From: Cryobacterium sp. SO1
Lineage (GTDB): Bacteria > Actinomycetota > Actinomycetes > Actinomycetales > Microbacteriaceae
Assembly: GCF_004210215.2 (NCBI RefSeq)
Contig: NZ_CP067394.1
Span: 4,004,635-4,068,634 of the forward strand
Direction of reading: 5' to 3'
DNA: 64,000 bases
Shown: positions 30,871-58,232 of the stretch, in pieces
How positions within the stretch are numbered: the stretch's first letter is position 1
How the letters are laid out: every line of letters begins with the position of its first letter
Program-made: the position numbers and the translations under genes
The notes under the pieces: generated by a model
What the model saw: only the letters and a program-made list of their open reading frames with translations
Told to the model about the DNA's origin: nothing
Database searches by the model: none

Positions 30871-31638
30871 TCACTCCCAGTAGCCGTCCTGGGCTCGCGC
30901 TTGATCGTTGCGGTGCCGGCGCATGTCGATCTGGCCCAGGTTGATGATTCGGGCGTTGTTGGCGAGGCGGTTCACGATCGAGTCCGCCGCAACCCGGTCG
31001 GGCAACTCGGCAACCCAGTGGGTTGGCCCAGTTTGTGAGGCGATCATCGTCGGCAGCCGGTGTTCTCGGTTGGCGAGGATGGCGAACAGATCGCTGGCGG
31101 CGTCGCTGTCGATGCCGACGGTGAGGAAGTCATCGATGATGAGCAGGTCGATGTCGGAGAGCTCGTTCAACAGTTTCTGGTGAGCGATGCCGTTGCCGCG
31201 GGCAATGATGAGCCGTCGGGCGAGGTCGTCCATCCGGAAGTAGAGGACCGAGTGTTCGCTTTGGCAGGCGCCGATAGCCAGCGCGCAAGCGAGGTAGGTT
31301 TTGCCGCCGCCGGTGGGCGAGATGATCAGCAGGTTCGTCGGGTCTGCCCTCCAGGCATGGTCCGCATAACGGCGCATTCTGACCGGGGTGATGCCGCGCC
31401 CCTCGCGGTAGTCGACCTCGGCGACGGTCGCGCCGGGGATAGGGAACGCGGCTTGGCGGATGAGTTTGTCGACCTTGTTGATGCGCCTGGACTCGAGGGC
31501 GTCATCGACGGCGGTGAGGAACAGCTGCTCGGGGGTGAGCGTGTCGTTATCTTCGTCCTGGATGAGTTCCTCCAGCCGGGTCGCAACGTGCGTCACCCGC
31601 AGGGCCCGGAACTTGTCGTAATCGACGCTGGTGAACAT
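30871..31638 (-). CDS. istB: IstB-like ATP-binding transposition protein (IS21-like element 1)
   Basis: 255-residue AAA+ ATPase helper of IS21 transposition. Walker A SPTGGGKTYLACAL near residue 107, Walker B DIDLLIIDDFL near 165, sensor region MIASQTGPTHW and the final IVNRLANNARIINLGQIDMR block. ATG 31638 overlaps the istA stop as ATGA, typical for istA-istB. It appears intact, though its istA partner is split. Confidence 0.88.
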   Translation of the reverse strand: MFTSVDYDKFRALRVTHVATRLEELIQDEDNDTLTPEQLFLTAVDDALESRRINKVDKLIRQAAFPIPGATVAEVDYREGRGITPVRMRRYADHAWRADPTNLLIISPTGGGKTYLACALAIGACQSEHSVLYFRMDDLARRLIIARGNGIAHQKLLNELSDIDLLIIDDFLTVGIDSDAASDLFAILANREHRLPTMIASQTGPTHWVAELPDRVAADSIVNRLANNARIINLGQIDMRRHRNDQARAQDGYWE

Positions 31639-32490
31639 CACTTGCCCTCCTCGTCGCGTGCGTAGTGGGAGGCGTCGCGAACGTAAACGTCTGGCATGGA
31701 GTCGCGGAAAACGACGGTGCTGACGCGTTTGCGTGTCGAGGCCGCCGGGACCACCGGGCGAGGCTTCTTCGCATCGCTGTCGATCGTGGCCATGCTGTGT
31801 TTCAGCGTCGTATAGGTGGGATGGGCTCGACGGTTGAGCAGCTCTTGGCAGGCCGCGTCCAGCCGCTCGCGATTGTTCTTCCCGAGCCCGTCCAGGATGT
31901 TTTGGCAGGCCAGATACCCCTGCGCCTCGATCGCCTGGCCGTCGAGGATCTGCTCGATCACGGTCACAGTCGCCGGTCCAACGCTGCGGGCCCGGTCGGT
32001 GAACCACTGTCGGGACCAGAGCCCGTCGATGTTGCGGTGCTGCGGTGGAATGTGCTCGGGCAGGGTCGAGTACTGGCCCTTCCGGCCGGTCAACCGTGGG
32101 TGTTCGCAGAGCATCTCGTGCCCGTCGAAGACCGTCACCCGTGACGAGGTCAGCCTCACCCGCAGCAGCTTGCCCGCCAGGCCGAACGGCACCGAATACC
32201 GTTGCGTGTCGGCGGTGACGTGGTAGTTCCGGCCGGCCTTGAGCTCCTTCCAGGAGACGTCCTCGAAAGCAGCGTCCGGCAACGGCTCAAGGAAGTCTCG
32301 TTCCTCGGTGTCGAACCTCTCCCACCGGGTCGTATCGTCCGCGCGGCGAATGTCGTGGTTGATCTCTCGCACCCGCTCGTTGATCGCGTCGTTGAGCTCG
32401 CTGAGGGTCGTGAAGACATCGTCGTCGAGGTAACCGATGACGCGTTTGTTCACGACGTTCACCGCGTTCTCGGCCGCCGCCTTATCGCGC
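31638..32490 (-). pseudogene. istA: IstA-like transposase, C-terminal fragment (split by RIT)
   Basis: Carries the catalytic Glu segment (DKAAAENAVNVVNKRVIGYL) and the C-terminal barrel of the IS21 transposase. Upstream sequence belongs to the RIT element. Fusing it to the fragment at 35960-36569 restores VKRPRDKAAAEN in frame when one copy of TCGCGC is removed, so the reading frame was intact before RIT insertion. Confidence 0.88.
32485..32490 (+). repeat. RIT flanking direct repeat, left (TCGCGC)
   Basis: TCGCGC occurs here and at 35960-35965. It is the short overlap expected from tyrosine-recombinase integration; removing one copy rebuilds istA. Confidence 0.75.
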
Positions 32491-32510
32491 TTATCCCGAA
32501 TTCGGGATAA
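32491..32510. repeat. Perfect 20-bp palindrome at RIT left boundary
   Basis: TTATCCCGAATTCGGGATAA is self-complementary over its full length. Its half, TTATCCCGA, recurs within the 85-bp repeats, so it is probably a recombinase-binding arm pair. It has no equivalent at the right end. Confidence 0.85.
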
Positions 32511-32515
32511 CAAAG

Positions 32516-32600
32516 ACTATCCCGAGGATTCTGTTATCCCGAGTATCGGCCGCGATGCCTGTGCGGTGGCGGCCTGAGGGCTGATTTCCTCGGGATAATC
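32516..32600 (+). repeat. RIT terminal inverted repeat, left (85 bp)
   Basis: Exactly complementary to 35876-35960. It starts ACTATCCCGAGG and contains three copies of TATCCCGA/TCGGGATA. It includes no gene. Confidence 0.95.
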
Positions 32601-32655
32601 GCGGCCCGCCTACGCTGGCTCATCTCTTTCGATTTCACTGGAGGTGAGCTTCGAG

Positions 32656-33897
32656 ATGAATGTTTCTATTGGCGAGCTGATCGTGCAGGCGGATGCTGCC
32701 ATGAGTGGACTGCAGCATGCGCCATCGACGACGATGCAGTACCGGTGGGCGTGGTCCCAGTTCGCGAGGTTCTGTTCCCGCGACGGTATCGATGAGTTCA
32801 GAGAGGAGGCCGTCGCCGCGTTTATTGAATTCGTCGCCGCGGAGTATCGGGACGGCCGGTTCAAAGGGTGGAAAAGCAAGCTGCTGCGCAAGGCCGCTCT
32901 GGTGCTGTCGGAGGTGGCACGGACCGGGTCCTATGAGTGGTGTCTGGCTCGCCCGGCGCATCCGAATGATGCGCTGGACGTGGTCTTCCGCCCGGTCCAG
33001 GAGCAGTTCGAGCGCTGGCTGCAGGGCCGGTCGTTGGCCGTCAGCACCCAGAATCTGTATGCGACGGTGTCGCGCGCCGCGTTGGCGTGGCTGCCCGACC
33101 GCGGCGTGGCCGATGCTCGGGCGCTGTCCAGAATGGACGTGTCGGCAATGGTGGTGTTTCTCGGCAGCCGGTACCAGCCGGGGAGCATGAGGACAGTGCT
33201 GTCGGCGCTGCGCGTGCTGTGTCGCTTCTGGGAGGAATCCGGCTACGGCGTCGGACTCTCGCAGGCGGTCCCGGCTCAGAGGGTGCGGCGTGTCCGCTCG
33301 GTGGGAGTCATCTCGGCCGACGGAGTCGACGCGCTGGTGAACTCCGCGGCGGTGTCCACACCGATGGGCTTACGGGACAGAGCAATGCTGCTGGTTGGCG
33401 CCCGGACGGGGCTGCGGCCGGTGGACATCGCAGGGTTGCGGTTGCGCGATATCGACTGGCCGCACGCACGAATCACTCTCACCCAGCACAAGACGGGGGC
33501 GTCGGTGACGTTGCCGCTGCTGGCCGAGGTCGGTGAGGCGATTGCGGAGTATCTGTTGCATGGCAGACCCGTCGACGGGGACGACGACCATGTTTTCCTG
33601 CGCTCCCATGCCCCCTACGTGGGCCTGACCCTATCCCACAGTTTGTATTGGGTGGCCGCGCGGGCCTTCGCCCGCTCCGGCACTGTCACCCAGAACGGCA
33701 CCGGCCGCGGCTTCCGGGTGTTGCGGGCCTCGTTCGCCACCCGGCTGCTGGCGGACGGCACACCGCTGCCGGTGATCTCCGGCGCCCTCGGGCACCGGGG
33801 GATCACCTCGGCGAAACACTACCTCTCGGCCGACGACGAGCGCATGCGGGAGTGCTGCCTCGACTTCGCCGGTATCGAGCCGAGAGGAGCACTCTGA
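32656..33897 (+). CDS. ritA: RIT tyrosine recombinase A
   Basis: 413-residue phage-integrase-family recombinase. Core-binding SAM-like domain about 95-200; catalytic domain with Arg in GARTGLRPVDI (about 253), a Lys in the beta-hairpin (QHKTG), the box-II block RVLRASFATRLL (about 353; Arg replaces the usual His of HxxR), LGHRG and the nucleophile Tyr in AKHYLSADD (about 388). ATG 32656 follows TGGAGGTGAG. It overlaps the next recombinase by one base (TGATG), as in other RIT operons. Confidence 0.9.
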   Translation: MNVSIGELIVQADAAMSGLQHAPSTTMQYRWAWSQFARFCSRDGIDEFREEAVAAFIEFVAAEYRDGRFKGWKSKLLRKAALVLSEVARTGSYEWCLARPAHPNDALDVVFRPVQEQFERWLQGRSLAVSTQNLYATVSRAALAWLPDRGVADARALSRMDVSAMVVFLGSRYQPGSMRTVLSALRVLCRFWEESGYGVGLSQAVPAQRVRRVRSVGVISADGVDALVNSAAVSTPMGLRDRAMLLVGARTGLRPVDIAGLRLRDIDWPHARITLTQHKTGASVTLPLLAEVGEAIAEYLLHGRPVDGDDDHVFLRSHAPYVGLTLSHSLYWVAARAFARSGTVTQNGTGRGFRVLRASFATRLLADGTPLPVISGALGHRGITSAKHYLSADDERMRECCLDFAGIEPRGAL

Positions 33898-34871
33898 TGA
33901 GCGGCTTCGTCAGCGGCCTGGCCGCTCCGCTGCAGTCCCTGCTGGAGCTCAAGCACGCGATCGGGTTGCCCTACGTGAACTCCGAGTCGCATCTGCGCCG
34001 CTTCGACAGGATGTGTGCTGAGACTTACCCGGGCGAGGTGACGCTGACGAAGGAGATGGCCATGTCCTGGGCCGTCGCCCGCCCGGATGAGCACGTCAAC
34101 GGGCAGATGCGGCGGATCACCCCGATCCGGCAACTGGCCAAACATATGGGCGCCCTCGGCCTGAGCGCCTTCGTCATCCCGCCGGGCATCCCCGGCAAAC
34201 AAATTCGTTACCGCCCGCACATCTACTCCCACGCGCAGCTACGGTCCCTCTTCGACGCCGCCGACGACATCAAGGCCACCGGCTATGGCGGCAGACGGGA
34301 GGTGATCATCCCGGTGATCTTCCGGATGATCTACTGCCTGGGGCTGCGGCCGAGCGAAGCCCGCACGCTGCACCGCAACGACGTCGACCTGGCCCGCGGC
34401 ACGGTGAGCATCCGGCAGTCCAAAGGGCACAAGGACCGCATCGTCTTCCTCTCACCAGACCTGCACGAATACTGCCGCAACTATGACGCGACGATCAGCG
34501 TCCACCATCCGGACCGGGTCCCGTTCTTCCCGAATCGCTACGGAGGTTTCTATAGCGACTGCACGATCGACTACTGGTTCCAGCAGCTGCTGGCCGCCGC
34601 CGACCCGCCCGTCGTGTCCAGCCCGGGTTCGCCGCCGCGCGTCTACGACCTCCGCCATGCCCATGTGGTCGAGAACATCAACCGGTGGGTCCTCGCCGGG
34701 AAGGACCCGGAAGCGTTGGTGGCCTATTTGAGCCTGCATCTCGGACACGCCAACACGGAGGACACCTGGTACTACTTCCACCTTGCCGCGGACTTCCACG
34801 TCGACCTGCGCCGGATCGCCAACACCGGAATCGAATCCGCACTCCTGGAGGCCCCCGATGGCCTCCGATGA
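33897..34871 (+). CDS. ritB: RIT tyrosine recombinase B
   Basis: 324 residues. Arg in CLGLRPSEARTL (about 151), Lys in QSKGHKDR, box II YDLRHAHVVENI (about 250; HAH follows the Arg), LGHANTEDTWYYFH with the Tyr about 292. Start ATG 33897 overlaps the ritA stop by one base. Its last 14 bases overlap ritC. Having lost no catalytic residue, it is presumably active. Confidence 0.9.
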   Translation: MSGFVSGLAAPLQSLLELKHAIGLPYVNSESHLRRFDRMCAETYPGEVTLTKEMAMSWAVARPDEHVNGQMRRITPIRQLAKHMGALGLSAFVIPPGIPGKQIRYRPHIYSHAQLRSLFDAADDIKATGYGGRREVIIPVIFRMIYCLGLRPSEARTLHRNDVDLARGTVSIRQSKGHKDRIVFLSPDLHEYCRNYDATISVHHPDRVPFFPNRYGGFYSDCTIDYWFQQLLAAADPPVVSSPGSPPRVYDLRHAHVVENINRWVLAGKDPEALVAYLSLHLGHANTEDTWYYFHLAADFHVDLRRIANTGIESALLEAPDGLR

Positions 34872-35877
34872 CTTCTTCCGACTGGTCCGATCCTGGCTGA
34901 CGGTCCACCTGCCCCGGTCGCGGCGGCTCAGTCCGCACACCATCCGCTCCTACAGAACCGCGCTGAACGCCCTGCTCGACTTCCTGCGCGAGTCGCAGCA
35001 CCTCGCCCTGGCCGAGGTCTCCTTCGAGGTCATCGACCGCTCCACCATCACTGCCTTCCTCACCTGGCTGTTGGAGACCCGGCATCTCGCAGCTTCCTCC
35101 GCGAACCAGCGCCTGGCCGCGGTCAAGTCGTTCCTGTCGTATTGCGCCGGCGAGGATCCGGCACTGGTGTCGATCTGGCTGGAGGTCACCCAGGTCAGAC
35201 CCGCCCGGACGCCGACGCGAGCCCCGGACGGGTTGAGCATGCCCGCCGTCGACGCGCTGATCCGCGCCCCCGGACAGCACACCGGCCGCGGGCGCCGGGA
35301 CACCACCCTCATCCTGCTCACCTTCGACGCCGCCGCGCGAATCCAGGAGATTTTGGACCTGACCCCAGCGGATATCGACACCACGATCGGTGCCGCGCGG
35401 GTGACGCTCACCGGCAAAGGCCGCAAGAGCAGGACCGTCCCGCTGATGGACAAGACCGCCCGCCACCTCGACCAGTATCTGGCCGAGCTGCATCCCGGCG
35501 CGGCGAATTCGGCTGCCTTGTTGTTCTTCACTGTCCGGGCGGGTCGCCGGCACCCGATGAGCCAGGACAACATCTCCTACCTGCTCAACAAACACGCGAC
35601 CGCGGCACGGCAACACTGTTCGGAGGTCCCGGAGAAGGTCCATGCCCACCAGCTTCGGCACGCCCGCGCGATGCAGATGCTGCGCGTCGGGGTTCCCCTT
35701 CCCCACATCAAGGAATTCCTCGGCCACGCGAACATCTCGACCACGAGCATTTATGCGTCGGCCGACAACCAGATGGTCCGTGAGGCGATCCAGAAAGCAG
35801 GCAGCTCCACACCCGACCTCGCACCGCTCTGGAACGGAGGCGACGACCTCATTCTGCAGCTCGCCGGGCTGAAGTGA
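34858..35877 (+). CDS. ritC: RIT tyrosine recombinase C
   Basis: 339 residues. Core-binding domain about 15-105 (LSPHTIRSYRTALNALLDFL), catalytic Arg in FDAAARIQEILDL (about 160), Lys in TGKGRKSRTVP, HAHQLRHARAMQML (about 262) with the classical H-x-L-R-H, and LGHANISTTSIYASADN with the nucleophile Tyr (about 297). The stop codon TGA at 35875 reaches into the right inverted repeat. This member has the most canonical active site of the trio. Confidence 0.92.
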   Translation: MASDDFFRLVRSWLTVHLPRSRRLSPHTIRSYRTALNALLDFLRESQHLALAEVSFEVIDRSTITAFLTWLLETRHLAASSANQRLAAVKSFLSYCAGEDPALVSIWLEVTQVRPARTPTRAPDGLSMPAVDALIRAPGQHTGRGRRDTTLILLTFDAAARIQEILDLTPADIDTTIGAARVTLTGKGRKSRTVPLMDKTARHLDQYLAELHPGAANSAALLFFTVRAGRRHPMSQDNISYLLNKHATAARQHCSEVPEKVHAHQLRHARAMQMLRVGVPLPHIKEFLGHANISTTSIYASADNQMVREAIQKAGSSTPDLAPLWNGGDDLILQLAGLK

Positions 35878-35960
35878 TTATCCCGAGGAAATCAGCCCTC
35901 AGGCCGCCACCGCACAGGCATCGCGGCCGATACTCGGGATAACAGAATCCTCGGGATAGT
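35876..35960 (-). repeat. RIT terminal inverted repeat, right (85 bp)
   Basis: Perfect reverse complement of 32516-32600. The first two bases are the end of the ritC stop codon. Confidence 0.95.
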
Positions 35961-35965
35961 CGCGC
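35960..35965 (+). repeat. RIT flanking direct repeat, right (TCGCGC)
   Basis: Second copy of the six-base overlap sequence; see 32485-32490. Confidence 0.75.
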
Positions 35966-36569
35966 GGGCGCTTCACTCGAGCCGGGACGATCGCGCACTG
36001 ATAATGATCGGCGAGCTGCTGATACCTCGCGTTCACGACCCGCTCTGCGTCGCCCTTGTGGGTTTGATGGGTCGAGGTCGTCGGGTTGTCCGGAACGACG
36101 ATCTGCGGAACACCGCCATAAAACGCAAACGCTTGAACGTGAGCGTCGAGCCAGGCCGGGGACTTCATATCCGCATAAGCGCGGCAAAACATCATCCCCG
36201 AAAACGGCAACACCGCAACGAACAGCACCGCCCGGATCACCTCGCCGGTGATCGTGTCCACGACGTCCATCGTGTCTCCGGCCCAGTCGACCAGCATTGC
36301 CCGCCCAGGTTCGTGACGGAGCACCGCCACCAGATCATGGCTGCGGAGGTAATCGGTGAACAGGGCGCAGAACTGCGAATACCCATACTTCTTTCCCGCG
36401 TCCTTGGCATCGACGTATCGGCGCCAGGCCAACAGCAACGTGAAGTGCCGGTTCTGCTTCATCGCCGCCACCACCCGGGCCAGATCGGGCTGGACGTACT
36501 CCTCCGAAACCTTCCGACGCCCGTCTGGGAACCACTTCGCCAGGTCCGCGTCGGTGATCGCGACCATCG
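35960..36569 (-). pseudogene. istA: IstA-like transposase, N-terminal fragment (split and 5'-truncated)
   Basis: Reads from TDADLAKWFPDGRRK through MLVDWAGDTMD (first catalytic Asp) and IVVPDNPTTS (second Asp) to VKRPRD, where the RIT begins. Comparison with the intact istA at 37435 shows that about 45-50 N-terminal residues, the HTH, are missing; the sequence stops at 36569 where IS21-like element 2 begins. An ATG at 36567 is present but is not the original start. Confidence 0.85.
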
Positions 36570-36685: not shown

Positions 36686-37438
36686 CTATGCCGTGACCTG
36701 GCCGGCGGTGTGTTCTCTCATGTTGTGGCCGCCGGTCTCGACCCAAATGGTGTTCTGCACGATGCGGTCCATGATCGCGTCGGCGTGAACTCCAGAACCG
36801 AGACGCTGATGCCAATCCTTCTGGGCGTACTGGGTGCAGAACACCGTTGAGGCCTGGTCGTAGCGCCGCTCCAGGAGCTCCAACAGCATGCTCCTGGTGC
36901 TCTCGTCGGGCTCGTCCAGGAGCCACTCATCGATCACCAACAGCGAGAACGCGGCGTACTTGTTCAGGAACTTCGTCGACCCGGACGGCTTATCGCGGGC
37001 CAGCTGCCAAGCCTCTTCGAGCTCTGGCATCCGGATGTAGTGCGCTCGCACCCGGTGCCGGCAGGCCGCTTTCGCCAGCGCGCAGCCCAGATACGATTTC
37101 CCCGACCCGGTGAAGCCCTGGAACACGACGTTCTGCTGCCGGTCGATGAACGAGCACGTGCCCAGGCCGGCGATCATCGACCGGTCGAGGCCGCGTTCCT
37201 CGACGAGGTCCAGGCGACGCAGGTCCGCGTTCGGGTAGCGTAGGTTCGCCCGGCGGATCAGGCCCTCGACCTTGGTTTGGGTGAAGACGGAGTGGGCGTC
37301 ATCGACGGCCAGTTTGATCTTTTCCTCGAACGCCAAACCCAGCGTCAGGACATCGTCCTGGGCGTTGAACGCGTCCAACAGAGTGGTCACGCCCATCTCG
37401 CGGAGTTTCCGTTTGGTCTCGATATCGAGCCGGCTCAT
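36686..37438 (-). CDS. istB: IstB-like ATP-binding transposition protein (IS21-like element 2)
   Basis: 250 residues, DnaC-like AAA+ ATPase. Walker A GFTGSGKSYLGCAL near residue 108, Walker B FSLLVIDEWLLDEP near 165, CTQYAQKDWHQRLGSG and ADAIMDRIVQN near the end. ATG 37438 overlaps the istA stop (ATGA). Intact and distinct from the first element's IstB, so the two IS21-like elements belong to different subgroups. Confidence 0.9.
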   Translation of the reverse strand: MSRLDIETKRKLREMGVTTLLDAFNAQDDVLTLGLAFEEKIKLAVDDAHSVFTQTKVEGLIRRANLRYPNADLRRLDLVEERGLDRSMIAGLGTCSFIDRQQNVVFQGFTGSGKSYLGCALAKAACRHRVRAHYIRMPELEEAWQLARDKPSGSTKFLNKYAAFSLLVIDEWLLDEPDESTRSMLLELLERRYDQASTVFCTQYAQKDWHQRLGSGVHADAIMDRIVQNTIWVETGGHNMREHTAGQVTA

Positions 37439-39006
37439 CGTGCACCGCCTCCGGCGTAGTAGTCGGCCCCGCGGACATATCCGCCCGGTTCGGGCTCGGT
37501 GGGCTCGAAACGGGGAATCCTGCGGGTGCCTGTCTTGTCTTGCCCGGTCTCCAAGATCGGCTGCAAGTGCGCATACCGGGGCGAGCGAACACGACCCTCC
37601 AGGGCGATCTGACACGCTCTTTCCACTCGCTCGCTGGAGTAGCGCCGGCTCAGCCGCAGCACGGCCAGGGCGGCGTCGAAGCCTTGCTCCTCCACCGGCA
37701 CGGCCTCGAAGATCCTGTTCACCACGGTCACCATGTTCGGGCCGACCCGCTCCGCCCAGGCCCGGATCCTGACAGTGTCCCACTCCCGATATTTCTCGCC
37801 CTGGGGCTGGTCGGCATCGTTGGTGCGGTATTCGTTCACGACATGATCGCCGAACAACAGATGGCTGGTGAGCCGCTCGTGATTCCGGTAAACCTCCAGC
37901 ACTTGGGCGGTGATGCGCAGGTCGACGGCCTGTCCGATATGCGCGTAGGGGGCGGAGTAGAAGTTCTTCTCCCAAACCACATGCCCGTTCTTCTGCACCC
38001 GGCGCCCGATGATCCACCGGCTGATCTCATACGGAGCCGCCGGCAACGGCCGCAGCAACGCTTTTTCCTCGCTTTCGAACACACTCAGGCGCGAACCAGC
38101 ACGCTTCTGGAACGGCTCCCGGTTGTAAGCATCAATGCGTTCGCGGATCGCGGCCCTCAACTCGGGAAGGGTTCCGAAGCTCTGGTTCCGCAACCCGGCG
38201 ATGACCCAGGTCGCAACATGAGAGACGGTGTTTTCCACGGACGGTTTGTCTTTTGGTGACCGGGGGCGTCCCGGCAGCACCGCGGCCGAGTAATGCGCGG
38301 CCATCTGACGGTAGGCCTCGTTCAACACGACCTCACCCTCGCGAGGGTGCTTGATCACGCCAGTCTTCAGATTGTCGGGCACGATCCTAGGAACCGTTCC
38401 ACCGAACCACTCAAACATCGCCACGTTCGCCAGCAGCCAGGTGTCTTGGCGCATATCCAGCGCTGGCTCGACGAACGCATACCTCGAGAACGGCAGGCAC
38501 GCGACGAACAAATACACCCGCGACGTCTCGCCCGTGACCGGGTTGACGAGCTGCATCGTGGGCCCCGACCAGTCGACCTCGACCGTCCGCCCGGCCTTGT
38601 GGCCCACCCGGGACGCCGCCCCAGTGACCAGAGCATGGGCCGCGTAGGACTTGCAGAATCGGTCGTAACCCATCGCCGGCTGCCCCGTCGCTTTGCACCG
38701 GTCGACGTACTCGCCATGGAGCAGCTTCAGCGTTACCCCGACCTTGGCGAGCTCTTTATGCACCCCGTCCCAATCAGGCTGCACGAACACACTCTCGTGC
38801 TCGCCCCGACCAGGGAACAGCAGCGCATATACCTCGGCCTCGCTGCGGCTGGCATGGCCGTCACTGCCAATGCCAGCCTTCTCGGCGGCATCGAACACCG
38901 CCAACACACTCTTACGCGACATGCCTTGCGCGATCGCGATCGCCCGCCCGGTCATACCTTCGGCTCTGAGCTGAAGCACGAGCTTCGCGTTGATCCTTCG
39001 TACCAT
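37435..39006 (-). CDS. istA: IstA-like DDE transposase (IS21-like element 2)
   Basis: 523 residues. N-terminal HTH (LRAEGMTGRAIAIAQGMSRK), core with Asp in VEVDWSGPTMQ (about 143), Asp in RIVPDNLKTG (about 208) and Glu in DKPSVENTVSHV (about 255), then the C-terminal Mu-type barrel (NFYSAPYAHIGQAVDLRI). Intact, so this element may still be able to move. Confidence 0.92.
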   Translation of the reverse strand: MVRRINAKLVLQLRAEGMTGRAIAIAQGMSRKSVLAVFDAAEKAGIGSDGHASRSEAEVYALLFPGRGEHESVFVQPDWDGVHKELAKVGVTLKLLHGEYVDRCKATGQPAMGYDRFCKSYAAHALVTGAASRVGHKAGRTVEVDWSGPTMQLVNPVTGETSRVYLFVACLPFSRYAFVEPALDMRQDTWLLANVAMFEWFGGTVPRIVPDNLKTGVIKHPREGEVVLNEAYRQMAAHYSAAVLPGRPRSPKDKPSVENTVSHVATWVIAGLRNQSFGTLPELRAAIRERIDAYNREPFQKRAGSRLSVFESEEKALLRPLPAAPYEISRWIIGRRVQKNGHVVWEKNFYSAPYAHIGQAVDLRITAQVLEVYRNHERLTSHLLFGDHVVNEYRTNDADQPQGEKYREWDTVRIRAWAERVGPNMVTVVNRIFEAVPVEEQGFDAALAVLRLSRRYSSERVERACQIALEGRVRSPRYAHLQPILETGQDKTGTRRIPRFEPTEPEPGGYVRGADYYAGGGAR

Positions 39007-58042: not shown

Positions 58043-58052
58043 CGTTCGGCCA

Positions 58053-58068
58053 TGTTTCACGTGAAACA
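58053..58068. promoter_or_regulatory. parS site 1
   Basis: TGTTTCACGTGAAACA, perfect 16-bp parS palindrome, ParB-loading site for chromosome segregation, 11 bp after the ligase stop. Confidence 0.97.
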
Positions 58069-58232
58069 TGGCGTCGGGAGGGCCAATGTGACGGCCACTC
58101 TCGCGATCCGGCACAACCCTGCATGCCCAAATATCGGGAGAGTGGCGTACAGCGAACCGAAAATAGCCTGTTTTGAGTGGTTTTGCCACGTCTTGTCGGT
58201 CATCTGTCCCGCTGCTTGTCGCCGCCGGCCAG

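Follow-up and report, generated by a model that had tools for sequence, protein, structure and literature searches.

How does a transposon with three tyrosine recombinases choose its place, and what leads it into the middle of another element's transposase gene? The locus that raises this question lies in a 64,000-nucleotide stretch of Cryobacterium sp. SO1 (contig NZ_CP067394.1, positions 4,004,635 to 4,068,634), hereafter the window. There, a complete RIT element of 3,475 bp in total (32491-35965) interrupts a minus-strand istA, the transposase gene of an IS21 element. We propose, with a probability of about 0.7, that site-specific recombination takes the RIT into a single conserved codon site of istA genes of IS21 elements, by way of a circle that would carry two equivalent attachment sites and with them two addresses. 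The architecture, borders, spacers and target position on which this proposal draws are read directly from the DNA.

The element has features by which RITs are recognised: three adjacent, overlapping tyrosine recombinase genes in the same direction, terminal inverted repeats and a length of about 3.5 kb. The initial annotation was right on the coordinates, the overlapping recombinase genes and the TCGCGC direct repeat. It also gave perfect inverted repeats of 85 bp; they are perfect, and measure 86 bp. Two parts had been missed. The leftmost 20 bp form a palindrome outside the inverted repeat, and the CAAAGA adjoining it is a second crossover spacer. The parts of the element are as follows (none has a strand).

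32485..32490: TCGCGC, 6-bp crossover at the palindrome/target junction (attR), from junction comparison
32491..32510: 20-bp perfect palindrome TTATCCCGAATTCGGGATAA on the istA 3' side, made up of the core half-site twice, both copies facing outward
32511..32516: CAAAGA, putative passenger spacer at the middle site (M), identical to the target spacer of the genome's second copy
32515..32600: left 86-bp inverted-repeat arm, with half-sites TATCCCGA at 32518 and 32535 and TCGGGATA at 32590
35876..35961: right 86-bp inverted-repeat arm
35960..35965: TCGCGC, 6-bp crossover at the core/target junction (attL)

The only other perfect 20-bp palindrome within the window is at 58051-58070.

The one-contig genome of 4.07 Mb contains a second copy at 2179474-2182928. 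It is 100% identical over 3,455 bp (window 32511-35965), and the RIT element is therefore not a chance arrangement. The istA that holds this second copy is a different one, interrupted at the same codons (GRVRAP-KD-KASVEN), and the operon is reversed relative to istA. In both copies the 20-bp palindrome lies between the core and the istA 3' half, and the core directions are opposite. The stretch common to both runs from CAAAGAC to GTCGCGC. Copy 1 has GCGCGA at the istA border and CAAAGA at the palindrome, and copy 2 has the reverse, so that the middle spacer of each, reversed, is the target spacer of the other. Two identical copies at different sites argue for recent movement.

There are thus three crossover sites rather than two (target/core, core/palindrome and palindrome/target), and every one has a 6-bp spacer. 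In the target sense the layout is B-left-core-middle-palindrome-right-B'. Twenty-five loci entered a spacer comparison and gave 20 rows. After exclusion of L043, L044 and L097 (each a repeat copy under another locus) and L110 (another target), 16 istA copies were left; L048, L051, L054, L063 and L065 yielded no row. Many of the 53 genome contigs were too short, cut or without a clear inverted repeat, and L060 and L066 have repeats with the target unread. The spacers are given as left/middle (reversed)/right.

L001 (copy 1): GCGCGA/CAAAGA/GCGCGA
L002 (copy 2): CAAAGA/GCGCGA/CAAAGA
L012: TAAAGA/GCGCGA/GAAAGA
L014 and L037: GCGCGA/GCGCGA/GCGCGA
L016 with L038: GCGCGA/GCGCGA/AAAAGA
L040: GCGCGA/TAAGGA/TAAAGA
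L045: GAAGGA/GAAGGA/GAAGGA
L046 (middle and right): GTGCGA/GCGTGA
L047: GAAAGA/GAAAGA/GAAAGA
L052: GACGGA/GATGGA/GACGGA
L053: CAAGGA/GCGCGA/GCGCGA
L057: CCGGGA/CCGGGA/CCGGGA
L058: GCGTGA/GCGTGA/GCGTGA
L059: AAAAGA/AAAAGA/AAAAGA

The palindrome is on the istA 3' side in 16/16 istA copies in which it is readable. Relative to istA the operon runs in the same direction in nine and in the opposite direction in seven (n=16; the script was undecided on L058, which a separate reading assigned as opposite). Left and right spacers are equal in 11 of the 15 copies with both known, and the reversed middle spacer matches some istA border spacer of the table in 13/16. A 7-bp spacer was assumed at first and rejected. 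Left and middle share the seventh base in every copy where both could be read, and the right may have another one (L001, L045, L052, L057, L059); this base therefore belongs to the core, which leaves 6 bp.

In the mechanism that we propose, the moving unit would be the core (the 86-bp inverted repeats around ritABC) and the 20-bp palindrome, joined by a 6-bp spacer. With a half-site on either side of the palindrome and two identical core ends, the excised circle would be two-fold symmetric, the palindrome separating two equivalent attachment sites, palindrome-spacer a-core and palindrome-spacer b-core. Either site could recombine with the target. The spacer used would pass to the target borders, and the unused one would stay, reversed, between core and palindrome as a passenger. 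Such a circle would explain the palindrome on the istA 3' side, an operon running either way and the spacer swap between copies 1 and 2. The middle site may also recombine while the element is integrated, and the core would then be inverted or two targets joined. The circle, the choice of spacer, the inversion and the activity of the element are what we infer from the layout.

A plainer account is an ordinary site-specific transposon that makes a 6-bp target duplication, inserts in either direction and carries the palindrome as a fixed part of one end. The exact 6-bp repeats around 11/15 istA copies speak for it. However, such a palindrome should turn round whenever the operon does, yet it keeps to the istA 3' side throughout while the operon splits 9:7. 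In addition, copies 1 and 2, identical in their cores, have swapped middle and border spacers, and four copies have unequal borders, all of which makes this account quite unlikely. It is also conceivable, though we regard it as unlikely, that operon direction and spacer swap arise only from inversion of the core in place, by recombination of a border with the middle site, with no two-site circle involved. In L040 and L053 the middle spacer is indeed closer to the right spacer than the left one is, but inversion alone gives no account of copies 1 and 2, which at different targets carry each other's spacers with matched borders. As the palindrome is made of a recombinase half-site, autoregulation is possible, and ritABC could have its promoter, operator or terminator there. 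However, the gene next to the palindrome is ritA in some copies and ritC in others, as the palindrome follows the target and not the genes. It was rejected as a promoter for that reason, and a regulatory role as a whole is very improbable.

The target of the element is defined by the interrupted IS21 and its intact relatives. The parts of this IS21 are as follows.

30871..31638, minus strand: istB of the interrupted IS21 (IstB_IS21, 1.7e-37)
31641..32490, minus strand: istA 3' half, B' side of the target (NF033546 225-294, match 31641-32489; Mu-transpos_C_2; element-free homologues)
35966..36567, minus strand: istA 5' half, B side of the target (NF033546 52-221, match 35971-36567; rve)

Both flanks belong to one transposase gene, the NF033546 profile breaking at 221 / 225 in agreement with the intact homologues. 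This places the insertion, as had been claimed, between the second Asp and the Glu codons of IstA; the next Glu past the junction is the one that we take to be catalytic. The initial annotation had also predicted that removal of the element with one TCGCGC would join VKRPRD to KAAAEN, and that an uninterrupted homologue would match this join. Homologues were taken as one locus from each of seven Cryobacterium genomes (L017-L023), with further istA matches there left out and L024 dropped as a partial match. All seven are open over the predicted junction, across [KR][KR]PRDKA..E (7/7 read, 100 residues shown each). L017, with VKRPRDKAAAEN, has exactly the predicted protein join, its junction DNA differing synonymously, and L018, with CGCGCGATAAGG, has the very bases of the predicted join. 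A second IS21 with istB and istA both open abuts the interrupted one at window 36686-39006 and has a 99% copy at C1:779810-782177; its istA carries the uninterrupted site CCAAAAGACAAACCG.

Among the other istA copies, pieces cut at the element border fit the IS21 model in 9/9 tested on the 5' side (aligned ends 219-226) and 10/10 on the 3' side (starts 226-228), meeting at profile 219-228. L013, L014, L037, L016 and L038 were placed by DNA match to the istA flanks of copy 1 or 2, and L040 by eye. On this sequence evidence the insertion point is a recurrent target of the whole lineage and not a single event, which had also been missed. L014 and L037, both in genome G015, are identical over 5,948 bp, istA included, and are probably one event; because of this identity, the broken IS21 and its RIT may have been copied as a unit.

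Do other RITs choose comparable sites? Thirty plasmid stretches around RIT-like matches were picked from match lists for variety, and the target was readable from at least one side in 24 (not in L119, L121, L130, L153, L154 or L163). In 23 of these 24 it is at, or at most six codons from, a presumed catalytic motif; the roles of ArdC HExxH, the tyrosine-recombinase motifs, PD-(D/E)XK and IstA are assumed from general knowledge.

ArdC at HExxH: 12 copies, L120, L126 and L143-L152, eight with one half only
Tyrosine recombinase at box II: L124, L127, L128, L131
Tyrosine recombinase at Tyr: L117, L118, L123
YhcG PD-(D/E)XK nuclease at Asp: L122, L125
IstA: L132, and L162 six codons off
Strawberry-notch helicase, between domains: L129, the sole exception among the 24

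Pfam matches, with the pieces searched apart, break accordingly. For ArdC (L120, L126, L145, L147, L148 and L149 were run), MPTase-PolyVal ends at 53 (L120), 47 (L148) and 45 (L145) of 126 and resumes at 53-56 (L120, L126, L147, L149). The YhcG_C match of L122 and L125 stops at 62 of 157 and starts again at 60. Phage_integrase ends at 121 (L127), 124 (L069) and 125 (L128) of 172 at the box II breaks; at the Tyr breaks it ends at 138 (L117) and 161 (L123). In L131, a box II case, it resumes at 134. The pieces of L118 and L124 had no Pfam match, and their targets were read by eye, L118 also from its record name (integrase). A forecast made before L162 was read fits in part: istA is broken six codons past the presumed Glu on one side, and the other side is a recombinase with a weak Pfam match; there is no palindrome, as for a hybrid. 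Outside plasmids, LRHTFA of a recombinase is the target in the Desulfotomaculum contig L069. In a sister element from Cryobacterium, L110, the target is an IS3-type transposase in which rve ends at 100 of 102; the 3' piece of L110 had no Pfam match, and the 3' piece of L111, which is similar, picks up at rve_3 22 of 67. Different RIT lineages would home to different short conserved DNA sites, mostly catalytic-motif codons in mobile-element genes.

The palindrome is also found in other lineages. Among the 12 ArdC copies it is on the 3' side in all eight where it is seen, with seven operons in the same direction and five opposite, and it is on the 3' side in L069, L110, L117, L118, L122, L125 and L128. 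A palindrome stands beside one end in RITs of Rhodococcus, Cupriavidus, Phaeobacter, Desulfotomaculum and Erysipelotrichaceae. Palindromes readable by eye escaped the finders used: the first missed that of L069, both missed those of L126 and L151 (mismatched central bases), and one also missed that of L120; a blank from a finder is therefore no evidence. Within the genus, the 20-bp palindrome (at most two mismatches) is present in 10/57 genomes. Order-wide, the core/palindrome junction (at most three mismatches) was found in 1/396 genomes, the window's own, with few other genus members sampled. Viral contigs gave the palindrome in two stretches, with no core beside either within the 501 bases read of each.

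Three further observations concern the palindrome. The Erysipelotrichaceae RIT (L066 3583-3614; RitC 38% identical) shares its 20-bp palindrome, base for base, with the Cryobacterium element. L103 (G444) has, at 1501-1544, two tandem palindromes 4 bp apart, without a core; on either side is the 3' half of an IS3-type transposase gene. At position 1501 of L099 (G437), a palindrome stands without a core or a recognised target on either side (bases printed).

Some loci look like hybrids of two targets. In L127, on the finished Aromatoleum plasmid 2, the core lies between two recombinase 5' halves, and in L162, on a Cupriavidus plasmid, between an istA and a recombinase 5' half. Two 3' halves face outward in L102 and L103 (draft contigs) and in L124 (short pieces without a Pfam match). 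A middle site that met a second target would produce such hybrids, and they suggest that this site is used while the element is integrated.

Several points weigh against the two-address proposal. Left and right spacers are unequal in 4/15 istA copies. For two of these, a left/middle swap restores agreement as inversion would (L053 equal, L040 with one mismatch), and both look like core inversions; the borders of L012 differ by one base and those of L016 by four. Three of 16 middle spacers (TAAGGA, GTGCGA, GATGGA) lack an exact border match, and where all three spacers are equal a middle-spacer match says little. Just 15 of the 24 plasmid copies with a readable target showed a palindrome; that of L129 is on the 5' side of its target, and the side may differ between lineages. 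Neither circle, excision nor inversion was observed in the genome assemblies that constitute the data, and the contigs of L102, L103 and L109 are drafts, in which short repeats may be misassembled. The target rule also has an exception in Glaciibacter, whose copy (L109/L114) interrupts the glycine-betaine-binding gene OpuAC at position 138 of 257. Because of this copy, the target site would be a DNA sequence and not istA as such. A recombinase that needs conserved bases may find them best in active-site codons, a simple reason for the target rule, and DNA conservation may be the whole reason for it.

The recombinases themselves are encoded within the core.

32656..33897, plus strand: ritA, tyrosine recombinase, 413 amino acids (Phage_integrase 5.5e-21; XerD alignment)
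33897..34871, plus strand: ritB, tyrosine recombinase, 324 amino acids (Phage_integrase 1.7e-10; XerA, weak)
34858..35877, plus strand: ritC, tyrosine recombinase, 339 amino acids (Phage_integrase 4e-27; XerD alignment)

The overlaps are 1 bp for ritA/ritB and 14 bp for ritB/ritC. Aligned to XerD, RitC keeps Arg, His-x-x-Arg, His and Tyr, and RitA lacks the box II His. The RitB alignment covers the first part only, and its LRH and Tyr were read by eye. RitC matched 733 proteins at E <= 0.001 (120 listed), and RitA was found at E <= 1e-30 in 9/396 Actinomycetota genomes, the window's own included. An N-terminal part of RitA precedes its XerD-like region (residues 120-399). This agrees with the two CB domains of RitA in PMC8138268, which describes domain features of RitA and RitC.

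Taken together, it is about an even bet that RITs form a class of their own among site-specific transposons. Their attachment site, built from a palindrome, would have two-fold symmetry and hold two addresses, so that the element could remember two targets and switch between them. As a group they would home to catalytic codons in genes of other mobile elements, disarming competitors at a site that is hard to mutate away. Should landing in active-site codons of transposases, integrases and anti-restriction genes prove general among RITs, these elements would be parasites that disable other parasites, and tools aimed at conserved motifs could be made from their recombinases. Because natural copies define the ends, the 6-bp crossover, the unexpected third site and the target, the mechanism can be tested directly.

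Inteins and homing introns likewise occupy active-site codons, the most conserved ones in the genes that they target. They splice out of the protein or RNA, whereas a RIT breaks the gene.

RITs as such were already known. Neither the three-site layout nor the target rule turned up in the literature available to us, part of each source; the main 2013 RIT paper lies outside that literature and may have them. The RITs of Cupriavidus metallidurans CH34 (PMC2864759, PMC3414803) have overlapping ritA-ritB-ritC genes, about 3.5 kb and inverted repeats, and RITs are reported within an IS66 tnpA and within radC (PMC2864759). The accessible text of PMC3414803 notes that RIT ends vary, that repeat searches were convincing only for an inverted repeat and a palindrome overlapping it, and that it is hard to see why three proteins should be needed. 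The element studied here resembles these RITs in its three overlapping tyrosine recombinase genes, its inverted repeats and its place inside a transposase gene; the three-site layout, the spacer swap and the catalytic-codon rule are not described in that text. SE elements and Tn554 share with it tyrosine recombinases, target specificity and 6-bp spacers at the borders (PMC10214605), and the comparison table of that paper apparently marks the target specificity of RITs as not formally tested. In the sections we had, SEs have two tyrosine recombinases, two other proteins and two borders, with no palindromic third site described, whereas each RIT copy has three spacers. GInts, compared by their description in the same paper, resemble the RIT in having three recombinase-related genes and target specificity, and differ in having four conserved genes in a genomic island.

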